This document shows positions 2,483 to 47,850 of a stretch of DNA of 62,958 nt, piece after piece. The position numbers and the translations under genes are program-made. This stretch comes from an uncultured Lentisphaerota bacterium (GTDB taxonomy: Bacteria; Verrucomicrobiota; Kiritimatiellia; CAIQIC01): positions 1 through 62,958 of the forward strand of contig CAISWQ010000034.1 in NCBI GenBank assembly GCA_903889245.1. Direction: 5' to 3'. The notes beneath the pieces are model-generated. The model had not been told where the DNA came from. It did not search any database and worked only from the letters and a program-made list of their open reading frames with translations. The first letter of the stretch is position 1. Every line of letters begins with the position of its first letter.

Positions 2483-2702
2483 CGGTCAGTTGCCCTTGAT
2501 CGCACGGGAGGAGGATTGAATCAGTGAAATCGGTGGAACGTTTTCCGCTTCCGTACGGTCCATGAGGCCGAAAACATCAAAACATCGAAACTTGCGTTTC
2601 TCGCGCTCTGGCGTCCCCAAAAAGACCTGAACAGCCCTTTTCCCTCTCATAAATACGAAATTTCCCCGATAAACGTCCAACATGGGCCAAAAGGTGTCAC
2701 CG

Positions 2703-3289
2703 AAAACTCTCCGTTGATCCAACGGCGGGAAAAAGATGGCACCGAAAACCGTCCGTTGATCCAACGGTGATAAAAATGATGCACCCAAATCCGTCCGTTG
2801 ATCCGACGGCGGGATAAAGGTGTCACCGAAAACCCTCTGTTGACTCTACGGCGAGGAAAAAGGTGTACCCAAAACCGTCTGTTGATCCGACGGTGGGATA
2901 AAGGTGTCACCCAAAACCCTCCGCTGATTCGACGGCGGGATAAAGGTGTCACCGAAAACCCTCTGTTGATTCAACGCCGAGGAAAAAGGTGTACCCAAAA
3001 CCGTCCGTTGATCCGACGGCGGGATAAAGGTGTCACCCAAAACCCTCCGCTGATTCGACGGCGGGATAAAGGTGTCACCGAAAACCCTCTGTTGATTCAA
3101 CGGCGAGGAAAAAGGTGTACCCAAAACCGTCCGTTGATCCAACGGCGGGAAATAGGTGGCACCTAAAACCGTCCGTTGATTCGACGACGGGAAAAAGGTG
3201 TCACCGAAAACCCTCTGTTGATTCAACAGTGAAAAAAAGGTGCACCCAAAACCCTCCGCTGACTCGACGGCAGGAAAAAAGGTCACTCA
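2703..3289. repeat. 42-bp tandem repeat array, 14 units, with 126-bp higher-order period
   Basis: Units begin with AAAAC at 2703, 2745, 2787, 2829, 2871, 2913, 2955, 2997, 3039, 3081, 3123, 3165, 3207 and 3248. The period is exactly 42 bp except for one 41-bp unit. Each unit carries a small inverted repeat (CCGTTGATCCAACGG or a variant) followed by GGCGGGAWAAAGGTGTCACC. Units 4-10 follow an A-B-C-A-B-C-A order, so the array also repeats every 126 bp. There are no unique spacers, so this is not CRISPR. Because 42 is divisible by three, frames stay open on both strands, but no gene signature is present. The flank 2483-2702 has no recognisable feature. Confidence 0.95.
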
Positions 3290-3300
3290 AAGCCGGTGAT

Positions 3301-3398
3301 TTCCAAGGCTCGGAACTTTTCGCGCGTTTTTTTCCGAGGCTTGGAAAAGGCCAGCCCGCAGCGTTCAGTTTTCAGCGGTCAGCTTTCCAAGGCTGGGA
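3301..3398. repeat. Palindrome cluster (3 copies of TTCCAAGSCTTGGAA type)
   Basis: Palindrome centres lie at 3308, 3339 and 3392 (31 and 53 bp apart). The first two are mirror-image variants (CTCGGAA and TTCCGAG arms). A GCGGTCAGC filler repeat lies between the second and third. Confidence 0.85.
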
Positions 3399-3484
3399 AA
3401 AGAAGTAGACGCAGAGGGACGCAGATTCGCGCTGATTTTTAATCTGTCTTCATCCGTGTTCATCCGCGTCCATCTGCGGTTCCC

Positions 3485-3534
3485 TATTTTCCAAGGCCTG
3501 GAAAAATCGGGTGTTGTGTTTCCAATCCCTGGAA
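3485..3534. repeat. Palindrome cluster (2 copies)
   Basis: TTCCAAGGCCTGGAA centred at 3496 and TTCCAATCCCTGGAA centred at 3527, 31 bp apart, upstream of the metallopeptidase gene. Confidence 0.85.
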
Positions 3535-42645: not shown

Positions 42646-43191
42646 TCAGGCGACAAGCAGGCCGATCAGCAGAACGGCCACCATGAACAGCGTAGCCGTG
42701 ATCTTCACCATCAGCATCGCCGCACGCGCGAGGATCGCGCCAGTGGCGATGTGCAGCGCGGCGCCGTGGTGCTTGAGGCGGTAACGTTCGACGAGATAGG
42801 CGAGACCGAAGCTGCCGGCGAACAGGCCGAGGAGCGGGCCGAGCATGAAAAGCGGGAGGAGGCTGCCGAGCAGCAGACCGAGGAGTCCGCCGAGCAGCGC
42901 CGCCACGCCCGCCAACTTGGAGCCGCCGCGGCGCTGCACGCCCCAGGCGCCCGCCAGCCATTCAACAACCTCGATAGCCAGGCACAGCAGCAGGAACAAC
43001 AGGATGGTCACAAGGCCGGGGAAACCGGGCGCGCGCAGCCAGGCGGCCAGCACTGTGGCGGCCAGCACGAGCCACGTGCCGGAAAAGGTCAACGCGGAAA
43101 GTAGTACGCCACACAGGCACAGCAACAGCACCGTGAGATAGCCCACGCCGTGTCCCAGCAACGCGCCGACTTGTGACCAGTCCACATGCAT
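42646..43191 (-). CDS. DUF456-family membrane protein
   Basis: 181 aa with four or five hydrophobic segments. The family pattern is recognisable: VLLLCLCGVLLSALTFSGTWLVLAATVLAAWL, then LAIEVVEWLAGAWGVQRRGGSK (glycine-rich linker) and LLGGLLGLLLGSLLPLFMLGPLLGLFAGSFGLAYLVE. No biochemical function is known for the family. It is divergent from the large GHL10-like gene; the two starts are about 116 bp apart. Confidence 0.82.
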   Translation of the reverse strand: MHVDWSQVGALLGHGVGYLTVLLLCLCGVLLSALTFSGTWLVLAATVLAAWLRAPGFPGLVTILLFLLLCLAIEVVEWLAGAWGVQRRGGSKLAGVAALLGGLLGLLLGSLLPLFMLGPLLGLFAGSFGLAYLVERYRLKHHGAALHIATGAILARAAMLMVKITATLFMVAVLLIGLLVA

Positions 43192-43266
43192 GCGGAAAAC
43201 GGGCGCAGCTTACGCAAGGCCACCGGCCGCCGCAACCCCTCTCCACAACGCCCTCGAAAACCGGCC

Positions 43267-43294
43267 TTGACCGGCGTGGGCGCTGGGCTAGAGT
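43267..43294 (+). promoter_or_regulatory. Predicted promoter of the GHL10-like gene
   Basis: TTGACC-N16-TAGAGT, 13 nt from the ATG, with no Shine-Dalgarno sequence in the short leader. Confidence 0.5.
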
Positions 43295-43307
43295 GTCGCG
43301 AAAAAAA

Positions 43308-45686
43308 ATGGGGTACTGGTTGAAAATAGCTACGCTGCTCGCCTGCCTGTGCGCCGCCTCCTTGTTCGCGTGGGCCGCGCTGCCGCCAGCGACGGTGGTC
43401 ACGCTGGACGACGCCGAGCGTCCGGAGGCGTGGGAGGCGCACGATAAGGCGCCGGCACCGTGCGCCGCCAAGGACGGCGGCGTGGAGTTCACCTGTCCGT
43501 TCGGCGAGGGCCTCAACCGCGTCTATTGGGATCGCAAGCTGGCCGCCGATCTTTCCACGGCGACCTGCCTGGAATTCGATCTGACCTGTGAACGACCGGA
43601 GGCGCTGCAAGCACTGACCATCTATCTGAAGAGCGGGAAGGGTTGGCTGGTTGGCCAGACGCGTATCGCGGAGCCGGGCCGGCAGCGCCTGCTCCTGCCG
43701 AAGAGCCTTTTCAAGGCGGAGGATGGTCCGGCGGGATGGCAGCGCATCGAGGCTTTGCGTTTTTCGCCTTGGCGCGGCCAGCCCAAGAACACGCGCCTCA
43801 TCTTGCACGGCGTCACCGCGCGACTCGGCGGCGTGGTGATCATCGAGGGCACCTCGTCGGTGGGCAACGGCCCCGGCGAGCGCCGGATTGCGCAACGTGT
43901 GACCCGCCTGGTCAACGACTGGCTTAACGATCTTGGTATCGGCCACGATGTGGTGACCGACGATGACGCAGCGGAGGCGCTCACCCACGCGCGCGTCGCC
44001 ATGCTGCCCTATAACACCAACCCTTCGAGCCGCGAACTCAAGGCGCTGGCGGCCTTCGCGCAGCGCGGGGGCAAGCTGATGGTTTTTTATAGCGGCAGCA
44101 CGGAACTCGCCAAGCTGATGCACCTGCGGCTGGGGGCCTATGAACGGGCTGAAACGCCCGGTCGCTGGAGCGCCTTCCGCTTCGTCCATCCCACGGAATG
44201 GAACGTGCCCGAACGCATCGCGCAGGAATCGAGCAATATCATGCCGGCCTATCCCGGCGACAGCACCGCCAGCATCATCGCCCTGTGGGAAAACCGGCTG
44301 GGGGGCAAGACGCCGACGGCGGCCTGGACAGCCTCGCCGCAGGGCCTCTGGATGGCGCACATCCTTCAGGACGAGGACATCGCCCACAAGCGCCGCATGT
44401 TGCTGGGTCTGCTCGGCAAGCTCGACCCCAACATCTGGCCGCAGGCGGCGGTGCAGGCCTATTACCGCGCCGGAGTGGTGGGCGGCGCCACCAGCTTCGC
44501 CGCGAGCCGCGGGCATCTTGCCAAGGACGCGGCCAAACTGGCCGAGGCCGAGCGCCTGCACGCCAGCCTGCCCACGCTGTTCAAGGAGCGCCGCTACACC
44601 GAGGTTGTGGACCAAGCCGCCACGCTCAACCGCCTGCTGACCGAGGGGTATGCCGCCGCACAACCTGCGCCGCAGCACGAGTTCCGCGGCGTTTGGGAGC
44701 ACAACGGCGTGGGTTGGTATCCCGGTGATTGGGCGCGCACCTGCCGTGAACTGAAGGAGTCGCACCTGACCGCGGTGTTTGGCAACATGCTCTGGGGCGC
44801 GCTGGCGCACTATCCCAGCGACGTGCTGCCGCGCTCGGCCACCTTCCGCCGCTATGGCGACCAGCTCGACGCCGCCGTCAAGGCCGCTCATGCCAACGGA
44901 CTCCAATTCCACTGCTGGGCTGTTTGCTGGAATCCAGGCGGCGGCGCCCCGGAGGACTTCCTGGCCCGGCTGCAAAAAGCCGGCCGCCTGCAGCAGACCG
45001 CCGACGGCAAAAGCGCGCCATGGCTTTCGCCGCACCACCTCGACAACGTCGAGATGCTGCTCAAGGCCTACGCGGAGATCGCCCAACGCTATCCGCTGGA
45101 TGGCCTGCACCTTGACTATGTCCGCTACAGCGACCGCACCGTGGATTTTTCGCCGACCGCGCGTGGCGCTTTTGAGAAATGGCGCGGCGGCACGGCGTTC
45201 GGCTGGCCCAAGTGCGTGCAAAGCGGCGGTGCGCTCGCCCGTGAGTTCGAGTTGTTTCGTAGCGCCACCATCACCGCGTTCGTCCGCGAAGTCAGCCAGC
45301 GTGTGCGCGCCGTACGACCGGGTATCAAGATTTCCGCCGCCGTCTTCGCCGGCTATCCCGAATGCGTCACCAACGTCGGACAGGACTGGGCCCTGTGGCT
45401 GAAGCAGGGCTATGTGGACTTCATCTGCCCGATGAACTACACGGAGGACACGCCCCTCTTCCTCTCACGAACCGCGCAACACTTCGCCCTGCCCCAGGCC
45501 GCCGGCAGAATCTATGAAGGGCTCGGCATCGCCGCGCTGGAGTGCCGCCTGCGACCCGACCAGGCCATCGCGCAAATTGTCGGCCTGCGCAAACTGGGCG
45601 CGCCTGGCTTCCTATTCTTCGACCTTAGCCAGCCACTACGTGACGACATCCTGCCCTACCTGCGCATGGGCGTGCTCAAAGAGTGA
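43308..45686 (+). CDS. Secreted GHL10-type glycosyl-hydrolase-like protein
   Basis: 792 aa with a signal peptide (IATLLACLCAASLFAWAAL). The N-terminal 170 residues form a beta-sandwich (carbohydrate-binding-like: LEFDLTCERPEALQALTIYLKSG). A Rossmann-like middle domain follows (GGVVIIEGTSSVGNGPGERRIAQ...MLPYNTNPSSRELKALAAFA). The C-terminal TIM barrel is of the DUF187/GHL10 kind: EFRGVWEHNGVGWYPG, ANGLQFHCWAVCWNPG, LDGLHLDYVRYSD, KISAAVFAGYP and VDFICPMNYTED. The family contains glycan hydrolases active on cell-surface polysaccharides. Substrate unknown. Confidence 0.82.
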   Translation: MGYWLKIATLLACLCAASLFAWAALPPATVVTLDDAERPEAWEAHDKAPAPCAAKDGGVEFTCPFGEGLNRVYWDRKLAADLSTATCLEFDLTCERPEALQALTIYLKSGKGWLVGQTRIAEPGRQRLLLPKSLFKAEDGPAGWQRIEALRFSPWRGQPKNTRLILHGVTARLGGVVIIEGTSSVGNGPGERRIAQRVTRLVNDWLNDLGIGHDVVTDDDAAEALTHARVAMLPYNTNPSSRELKALAAFAQRGGKLMVFYSGSTELAKLMHLRLGAYERAETPGRWSAFRFVHPTEWNVPERIAQESSNIMPAYPGDSTASIIALWENRLGGKTPTAAWTASPQGLWMAHILQDEDIAHKRRMLLGLLGKLDPNIWPQAAVQAYYRAGVVGGATSFAASRGHLAKDAAKLAEAERLHASLPTLFKERRYTEVVDQAATLNRLLTEGYAAAQPAPQHEFRGVWEHNGVGWYPGDWARTCRELKESHLTAVFGNMLWGALAHYPSDVLPRSATFRRYGDQLDAAVKAAHANGLQFHCWAVCWNPGGGAPEDFLARLQKAGRLQQTADGKSAPWLSPHHLDNVEMLLKAYAEIAQRYPLDGLHLDYVRYSDRTVDFSPTARGAFEKWRGGTAFGWPKCVQSGGALAREFELFRSATITAFVREVSQRVRAVRPGIKISAAVFAGYPECVTNVGQDWALWLKQGYVDFICPMNYTEDTPLFLSRTAQHFALPQAAGRIYEGLGIAALECRLRPDQAIAQIVGLRKLGAPGFLFFDLSQPLRDDILPYLRMGVLKE

Positions 45687-46157
45687 CGAGGGACGAGTGT
45701 CGAGGGGCGAGGCGAACATCGAACAGCCAGCTTTGAACAGCGCAGGCGGGAAGAAGATCATCCACAGATTACACCGCTTTCACAGATGGCCGAGCAGCAG
45801 ACCGCCCAGCCAGAAAGCAGCGAAAGACTCAAGCGAGCCAGGCAGCGTTCAAGGTCTGACCTGGCCCGGACCCGGATTGTAATCAGGAAAGCAGGAAAAC
45901 AGGAACGGAACCGTCTTTGCCTGCCTTCCTGATTTCCTCCTTCAACCTCTGCCTTGGAAAACAGCGCAGGCGGGAAGCCGCGAAGAAGATCATCCACAGA
46001 TTACGCAGATTTCACAGATGGCCGCGCACAAACCGCAGCCGAAAGAGCGCAAGGCCCCAACGAGCCATTCATCGTTCAAGGTTTGACCCTACCCGCCGCC
46101 TGAAACTGCGCTTGGGGACGGTCCCCCGGCGCTGGGGACGCCTTTTTTCCAAAAAAC

Positions 46158-46435
46158 CCCTTGTCCCGGACGCTGGCAGCACGCGCTGGCGCGGTCCGGG
46201 ACAGGTCTCCAACGCTGGCAGCACGTGCTGCCGCCACGCGGGACAGGTCTCCAACGCCGGAGGCACGTGCTGCTGGCGCGCGCGACAGGTCCCCCGCGTT
46301 GGATACGCGTGCTCCCGGCGCACGTGACATGTCCCGGACGGTGGAAGCACGTGCTGGCGGGAGGCGCGACATGTCGCGGACGGTGGAAGCACGTGCTGCC
46401 GTGCTGCGGGACTTGTCCCGCAGCGCGGCAGCGGA
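46158..46435. repeat. Second 42-bp tandem repeat array, about 6.5 units
   Basis: Units start at 46158, 46200, 46242, 46284, 46326, 46368 and 46410 (GACAGGTC, GACATGTC or TTGTCC). Most have a central palindrome AGCACGTGCT; in the best unit it extends to GGCAGCACGTGCTGCC. The sequence is unrelated to the array at 2703, but the period is the same. Frames stay open on both strands because 42 is a multiple of 3. Confidence 0.9.
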
Positions 46436-46539
46436 GGGAGTTACGGTGCTGCTTTGGGGCGCTGGATTGGGGTTCCTCATAACCTGCGGAACAAATAGTC
46501 CGGCGCTGTCCACAGCGTTAAGGATTTTTTGGGTACTTG

Positions 46540-46624
46540 TTTGGAGTGCGCGGACGTGTCCGCGCTTGGGGGCGGCGCGACGCGTCGCGCCGCAGAAAGC
46601 GGCGTCCTGCCGCCGCACTCCAAA
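46540..46624. repeat. Cloverleaf-like multi-hairpin repeat
   Basis: The outer stem TTTGGAGTGCG/CGCACTCCAAA (11 bp) encloses three hairpins: CGGAC-GT-GTCCG, a perfect 22-bp palindrome beginning GCGGCGCGACG, and GCGGC-GTCCT-GCCGC. Confidence 0.85.
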
Positions 46625-46675
46625 TATTTTGCCCTCCATGCTCATCTGTGGCTGCTCTGCTTCCCGCCAGCGTTG

Positions 46676-46808
46676 TTTTCCAAGGCTTGGGAAATGGCGC
46701 GCAGCTTTTTCCGGGGCTTGGAAAAACCAGCGGTCAGAAGTCAGAGGTCAGCGATCAGATTTCCAAGCCTCGGAAAAAAACGCGCGAAATTTTCCAAGGC
46801 TTGGAACG
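46676..46808. repeat. Palindrome cluster (4 copies)
   Basis: Centres at 46685, 46716, 46768 and 46799 (31, 52 and 31 bp). A GGTCAG filler repeat lies in the wider gap. It precedes the stop codon of the minus-strand lipoprotein gene. Confidence 0.9.
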
Positions 46809-46857: not shown

Positions 46858-47850
46858 TCAGTCGCTGTCCGAGGTGCGGCTGGCGGGCTTCTCGAAGTAC
46901 ACGGTGTAGCGGAGGTTGTCGAAGGTGACTTTGTAGCGGCTGAGGAGTTGGCGGCCGAGGCGGACGACGGTGTCGGGCTGGAGGCCGCGCTCGCGGAGGG
47001 TGTAGGCGCGGACGTTGCGGAAGACCAGGTCGCCCACGCTGACTTGCTTGACGGGGCCAAGCGCCATGCGCGGGAGCGCGATTTCAAAGTCGCCGCCGGT
47101 GTCGAGGACGAGGGTCACTTTCTTGCCCTCGACCATGCCTTGGACGGCGTAGGGGCCGTCTTTTTCCAGCAGGGGGACGGCGGCCAGCAGGCGCGCGCTG
47201 TTCGGGCGGTAGGCCAGGGAGGTCGTGAGGGTGACCATGCGGTCCTCGAAGTCCATCTGCACGGAGGCGAATTCGCGCAGGATGTTGCAGCCGAGGACGC
47301 CCTCCGGGCGGGGGCCATCCACGTGCCGGCCCACCACGCCGAGAGGGCCGGAGGCGGCGCGGACAAAGAGTACGACGTTCTCGATCCAGAGCGGATCAAA
47401 GACGAGATGCGGCAGCAGGCAGCCGTAGCCGACGAGGTCGTCGCGCACGTGGGTCGGGGTGGTGCCGTAGGCGCGGTCGGTGCCGAGCGCCACCGTGCGC
47501 AGCCCGCTGGCGGACTCGAAGCGCAGCCAGCTTTCGCGCGAGCTGGTGTCGAGCAGGAAGGGCAGCGGCTCCTCGCCCTTGAGCCCGCCCTCGATGACCG
47601 GCGCGGTGCTGCTGCGCCGCGTGGCAAAGGGCAGGACGGCCTGCTGGCTCGGATGCAGGCGGTTGGCGCCGACGAACACCGGGCCATCGTCGGAACTGTA
47701 CATGGTGATGGCGTAGCGGCGCGGATCCTCCGGCTTGCCGAAGAAGGTGCGCAACTGGTCGTCGGTCAGCGGCCGGATATGCTCGGCGTGCGGCGCGCGG
47801 CAACCCGCCAGCGCCAGCGCCACCAAACCAAGAACGAGTGATGACTTCAT
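46858..47850 (-). CDS. Lipoprotein with two retropepsin-like aspartyl protease motifs
   Basis: 330 aa with a lipobox (LVALALAGC). Two half-domains each carry an aspartyl-protease-like signature: PFLLDTSSRESWLRF at about 97-111 and VTLVLDTGGDFEIALPRM at about 242-260. Each is followed by a hydrophobic psi-loop strand (GVLGCNILREF; VRLGRQLLSRYKVTFDNL). This is like the bacterial retropepsin-like (gag-asp) proteins, here as an internal pair. The first site has Ser where Gly is usual (DTS), the second is canonical DTG. Probably an envelope protease or peptide-binding protein. It is downstream of gpsA by 16 bp, with AGGAG before the ATG. Confidence 0.78.
   Translation of the reverse strand: MKSSLVLGLVALALAGCRAPHAEHIRPLTDDQLRTFFGKPEDPRRYAITMYSSDDGPVFVGANRLHPSQQAVLPFATRRSSTAPVIEGGLKGEEPLPFLLDTSSRESWLRFESASGLRTVALGTDRAYGTTPTHVRDDLVGYGCLLPHLVFDPLWIENVVLFVRAASGPLGVVGRHVDGPRPEGVLGCNILREFASVQMDFEDRMVTLTTSLAYRPNSARLLAAVPLLEKDGPYAVQGMVEGKKVTLVLDTGGDFEIALPRMALGPVKQVSVGDLVFRNVRAYTLRERGLQPDTVVRLGRQLLSRYKVTFDNLRYTVYFEKPASRTSDSD

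Follow-up and report, generated by a model that had tools for sequence, protein, structure and literature searches.

Helical phasing of protein-binding sites is well known at single promoters and origins. Among the systems closest to the arrays described here, plasmid iterons are rows of 17–22-bp repeats at about whole-turn spacing, to which Rep binds cooperatively and in a manner that depends on helical phase (PMC4980987). REP/BIME elements are dispersed, intergenic and palindromic, and often lie between convergent genes or right after stop codons. We know of no BIMEs with strict whole-turn spacing, and a literature search gave no paper describing any. Nor, as far as we know from a literature search that was not exhaustive, has whole-turn spacing been reported for highly iterated palindromes or DNA uptake sequences, short motifs that are present in very many copies. 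Here a single genome, from an uncultured Lentisphaerota bacterium of a group in which nucleoid organisation has to our knowledge been little studied, phases about 1,000 intergenic palindromes together with tandem arrays of unrelated sequence.

The window, a complete contig (C34) of 62,958 nucleotides from a 5.26-Mb genome in 125 contigs, carries a tandem array (the 46-kb array) in a 1.17-kb intergenic region between convergent genes (Table 1). Genes for glycerol-3-phosphate dehydrogenase (gpsA) and an acyltransferase (plsY) come next after the protease-like gene. The original prediction of about 6.5 units of 42 bp at 46158–46435 was confirmed by TRF (46163–46401, period 42, 5.7 copies, 77% matches, 0% indels) and by a lag-42 self-identity of 0.733 over 236 positions, compared with 0.300 ± 0.028 in shuffles (maximum 0.398 in 5000). 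One palindrome per unit had been proposed; palindromes are present, but each 42-bp unit contains two dyads, AGCACGTGCT and GGGACAKGTCCC, which alternate with their axes exactly 21.0 bp apart. Complementarity around axes at 21-bp steps was 0.65, compared with 0.30 ± 0.04 in shuffles, and axis spacings of 20, 20.5, 21.5 and 22 bp gave null-level complementarity, although any self-complementary 42-bp repeat automatically has axes every 21 bp. Most of the array reads as its reverse complement: it aligns to itself on the opposite strand at 67% over 226 bp. A two-site GGGACNNGTCCC pattern had no match, own genome included, because the dyads are imperfect.

Table 1 Coordinates of the array, its neighbours and related features in the window
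Feature	Position	Strand	Details
First array (2.7-kb array), sequence-unrelated	2689..3295	.	~14 units of 42 bp, 126-bp higher order
GHL10-like protein gene	43173-45686	+	
Further dispersed repeat	45821..45960	.	C58:289-413 96% identical, same order beside flanks
Opposite-side conserved flank	46001..46140	.	Recurs at C58, C35, C60, C13, C123 and window 45769-45868
Tandem array (46-kb array)	46158..46435	.	Six 42-bp units from 46164 (46164-46415) plus partial seventh; consensus TCCCGGACGCTGGAAGCACGTGCTGCCGGGGCGCGGGACAGG
Terminal dyad of array	46395..46432	.	18-bp arms, 94% complementary, centred on GACTTGTC
Conserved cassette flank ('leader')	46436..46545	.	Recurs at C123, C35, C58:1; weaker core at C16, C117
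Dispersed self-complementary element, ~90 bp	46536..46640	.	TTTGGAGTGCG...CGCACTCCAAA
Four TTCC-N7-GGAA-type boxes	46678..46806	.	Two pairs, ~31-32 bp within, ~52 bp between pairs
Aspartyl-protease-like protein gene	46858-47850	-	

Like iterons, the 46-kb array is a row of direct repeats at whole-turn spacing, with 42-bp units and dyads every 21.0 bp. Unlike them, its units are dyad-symmetric, and it is chromosomal and intergenic, beside gpsA/plsY, with no rep gene or origin seen and no match among 72,556 plasmids. A plasmid or phage origin was rejected, as neither search gave a match. With REP/BIME elements the array shares a dispersed, intergenic and palindromic character, whereas its unit sequence varies by locus, its spacers are unrelated, only a GGGAC..GTCCC-like core is common and whole-turn spacing is strict. 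The array is most like iterons or a BIME cluster, yet belongs to neither family, because there is no origin/Rep context and no palindrome plus linker common to the copies. Literature searches found no published description of these arrays.

Open frames span the array on both strands and the period is divisible by three, as would suit a decayed gene or a protein built of 14-residue (2 x 7) repeats; such frames are explained by a period divisible by three together with self-complementarity. There was no Pfam match, unit mismatches showed no consistent codon-position pattern across arrays, a 2-bp indel separates the homologous arrays on C16 and C35, and the C58 array contains in-frame stops. On these grounds a coding origin, which we judge very improbable, was rejected.

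As originally proposed, the other array in the window has no sequence similarity to the 46-kb array, and the two share both period and layout. The 2.7-kb array matched only itself in searches of its own genome and five relatives, and its dyads, of the CGTTGATCCAACG and GGTGNCACC types, recur every 21 bp. A dyad test gave a signal at 21.0 bp and at no other spacing for the two arrays of the window (z 13 and 17) and for arrays on contigs C16 (9), C58 (10), C18 (10), C123 (7) and C35 (5). The test was negative or weak for heptamer arrays, a coding TPR repeat and the arrays on C117, which lacks symmetry, and C66, which has barely any.

The 1.17-kb intergenic region is dense with dispersed repeats, and the array forms part of a cassette (flank, locus-specific array, flank) that occupies several intergenic places in the genome with differing repeat units. 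Arrays whose units differ in sequence lie beside copies of the 46436–46545 flank at C123 and C35, and beside a weaker core of this flank at C16 and C117; at C123, a copy of the 46001–46140 flank lies about 2 kb away from that locus's array. Units are GGACNGTCC-like with a 21-bp period at C123 and of the GGGAGACGTCTCCC type at 21/42 bp at C16 and C35, C117 holds a decayed GGGAC array, and arrays at C58:8520 and C18:3540 align with those of C16 and C35 at about 70%. The 46-kb array therefore has relatives in its own genome via common flanks and GGGAC..GTCCC cores and belongs to a group of seven or more related cassette arrays, so that independent replication comes solely from the 2.7-kb array and the TTCC arrays described below. 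Most of the GC-rich arrays belong to a single family; they are therefore mutually non-independent, and their common pitch may reflect common descent. In the 48% of the genome that was covered, the self-complementary element at 46536–46640 had matches at ten other places; contig C54 terminates within a 99% copy of it.

Contig segment C58:1–413 is a 92–96% paralog of window 45821–46545 with about 85 bp where the array would be, indicating that the cassette's labile portion is the array. Array plus flank had no match in 55 related genomes. In the sister genomes G002 and G003 the protease gene next to the array is present, but the DNA beyond it differs and the array is absent, and TRF detected no array at the corresponding locus of G001 or G003. 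This species specificity and the near loss of the array from the paralog are consistent with a neutral minisatellite, in which a palindromic 21- or 42-bp seed was tandemly duplicated and is now drifting, the period being inherited from the seed and functionless. Array self-identity also fell from 0.733 at lag 42 to 0.649 at lag 84 and 0.625 at lag 126, as duplication predicts; like minisatellites and VNTRs, the array consists of 42-bp tandem units, and paralogous places differ in whether, and how often, such units occur; its decay of identity with lag shows a duplication origin. We nevertheless consider the neutral account unlikely, although deserving of weight: unlike minisatellites, the array has dyad symmetry and a constant unit length, with zero indels even though units differ by 27%, its 21/42 pitch and dyad layout are common to unrelated arrays, and the TTCC boxes are phased without tandem copying of their spacers.

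The conserved flank on one side also raises the possibility that the array is transcribed, perhaps from that flank, and works as successive RNA hairpins or weak terminators. A predicted RNA fold z of −6.0 and units combining a hairpin with a T-run in some related arrays (C58 and C18) favour such an RNA, but good folding is expected of any self-complementary array. No Rfam family reached the gathering score, no sigma-70-type promoter was found when one was sought, hairpin covariation was absent between neighbouring TTCC boxes, and RNA hairpins have no need of the 10.44-bp phasing reported below; we regard an RNA element as improbable. The T-run-ended units, which occur in the related arrays at C58:8512–8765 and C18:3540–3750, resemble small intrinsic terminators, for example GCCTGCTCCCGTGGGACGGGAGCAGGCTTTTTT.

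Repeat periods across 2.52 Mb (48% of the genome, on which all genome statistics here are based) were sharply clustered in TRF and a lag scan, and not broadly distributed. Among TRF rows of 2.8 copies or more, periods were 31–32 (23 rows), 21 (14), 14 (12, largely heptamer-derived), 42 (7), 84 (2) and 126 bp (1). With TTCC boxes masked, and counted above the baseline of three all-N contigs, the lag scan gave 11 loci at 21 bp, 11 at 42 and 7 at 63, compared with zero at 20, 22, 31, 32, 41 and 43. Among the loci at 21 bp are some heptamer arrays (3 × 7), in which dyad symmetry is not pronounced, and a few coding sequences. An axis-spacing scan from 15 to 45 bp, in which loci were not preselected, returned 12 loci at 21.0 bp against a background of mostly 0–7; three of the 12 (L150, L117 and L052) looked coding-like and were left out of the array count. 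TTCC arrays appeared in the same scan at 15.5/16 and 31–32 bp. A search limited to perfect even palindromes gave no information, as it passed over the TTCC boxes, whose length is odd. The proposal that the period itself is selected thus stands insofar as periods cluster sharply, but not for 42 bp as such: what seems to be selected is that dyads stand a whole number of helical turns apart, 42 bp being two 21-bp steps.

The strongest evidence for the importance of phase is provided by the TTCC-N7-GGAA boxes, whose phasing is probably more important than the array itself. Under a looser pattern, about 1,100 of these palindromes, with unrelated spacers, occur in 48% of the genome. Pair distances up to 150 bp among the 757 boxes of a stricter pattern fell only at 31–32, 42, 52, 62–65, 83–84, 93–97, 115, 125–128 and 136 bp; consecutive distances among the 1,100 looser boxes fell into the same classes plus 20–21, 74 and 104 bp, with 48, 132 and one duplicated 97 as clear exceptions. 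Almost without exception, therefore, box spacings are n × 10.44 bp, such that the spacing histogram alone yields the DNA helical repeat. Odd turn numbers are split over two integers (31/32 and 52/53) and 42 is sharp, both of which are expected if the helical repeat is close to 10.5. When the three-turn class and its sums were excluded, the remaining 26 distances were best fitted by 10.44 bp with a mean cosine of 0.78, a value matched by 0 of 5000 random sets. Phasing weakens past 150 bp, where there are few pairs. Since the spacers are unrelated, simple tandem copying does not account for the phasing. The earlier suggestion that a 42-bp period fits the spacing of TTCCAAG palindromes holds, and one TTCC array (C28:14648–14914, in a region extending to 14938, L133) itself has its boxes exactly 42 bp apart and not 31.5, again with differing spacers. 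The 31/32 pair spacing is also found in the sister species G001, G002 and G003 with other spacers; strict TTCC pairs with gaps of 18–46 bp were absent from these three, so phasing past three turns is seen in the own genome alone. In copy number the boxes resemble highly iterated palindromes and DNA uptake sequences, from which they differ in their whole-turn spacing in pairs and arrays. A second example of phased boxes in the window lies at 3332–3503. Gene-orientation statistics for TTCC clusters, which depend on a crude gene caller, do not enter into any conclusion here.

A and T tracts flank the TTCC boxes, and phased tracts are able to bend DNA, raising the prospect of a shape element in which phased sequence would bend DNA without a dedicated protein, forming a curved boundary or a site for general proteins of the HU/gyrase type. 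However, the 46-kb array is 73% G+C and lacks A tracts, and curvature does not require dyad symmetry; pure DNA curvature is better suited to the tract-flanked boxes than to this array, and as an explanation for the array we find it quite improbable.

We infer that the likeliest mechanism, which we hold to be somewhat better than an even chance, is cooperative same-face binding by putative dimeric proteins, resembling that on plasmid iterons, where Rep cooperativity is lost when the sites are separated by half a helical turn (PMC4980987). The array is non-coding double-stranded DNA with dyad sites two helical turns apart and identical sites four turns apart, and would offer one or two homodimeric DNA-binding proteins a row of candidate sites. 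Bound neighbours would touch along one face of the helix and bind cooperatively only where dyads are in phase, and selection would preserve dyads and spacing while the intervening letters drift. Several features argue for this reading: dyad symmetry at 21.0-bp axis spacing only, in both window arrays and those of C16, C58, C18, C123 and C35 (z 5–17); units without indels at 27% divergence; one layout in two sequence-unrelated arrays; lag peaks at 21/42/63 only; and TTCC boxes at n × 10.44 bp, with 31/32 kept in sister species despite other spacers. Against it weigh the kinship of most GC-rich arrays, the automatic 21-bp axes of a self-complementary 42-bp repeat, the C117 and C66 arrays with little or no symmetry, the absence of the array from sister genomes and its near loss from the paralogous cassette.

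The array appears to be one case of a wider rule in this genus that places intergenic palindromes whole turns apart, with TTCC-N7-GGAA boxes mostly at three turns, GC-rich dyads at two, and the 2.7-kb array at two and four. Its putative role would be architectural, in compaction or the marking of gene boundaries. More tentatively, and with the balance of probability against it, the TTCC-N7-GGAA boxes, the GC-rich 21/42-bp cassette arrays and the 2.7-kb array could jointly form a helically phased nucleoprotein scaffold throughout the genus, in which at least 1,000 intergenic dyads of several unrelated sequences lie whole B-DNA turns apart as proteins assemble along one face; it would be chromatin-like but written in spacing. 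If proteins are responsible, the sites would constitute a sequence-encoded scaffold, testable by a simple half-turn insertion.

Heptamer stretches of the GGTCAGN type lie between TTCC boxes at window 46709–46775, window 3332–3399 and L128:12615. Across them the box-to-box distance widens to 52–53 or 83 bp, so phase is kept, and the match of three heptamers (3 × 7 = 21 bp) to the pitch may be no accident. Two further repeat regions were observed: an array of about 42/84 bp at C66:19670–20000 (L167; CCGGACACCTCCGC), which contains indels and is almost devoid of dyad symmetry, and a long 71/142-bp repeat region at C4:156–1397 (L059) that includes ATCCATCTTCGCGAGCGTCAGCGGTTCCAAG.
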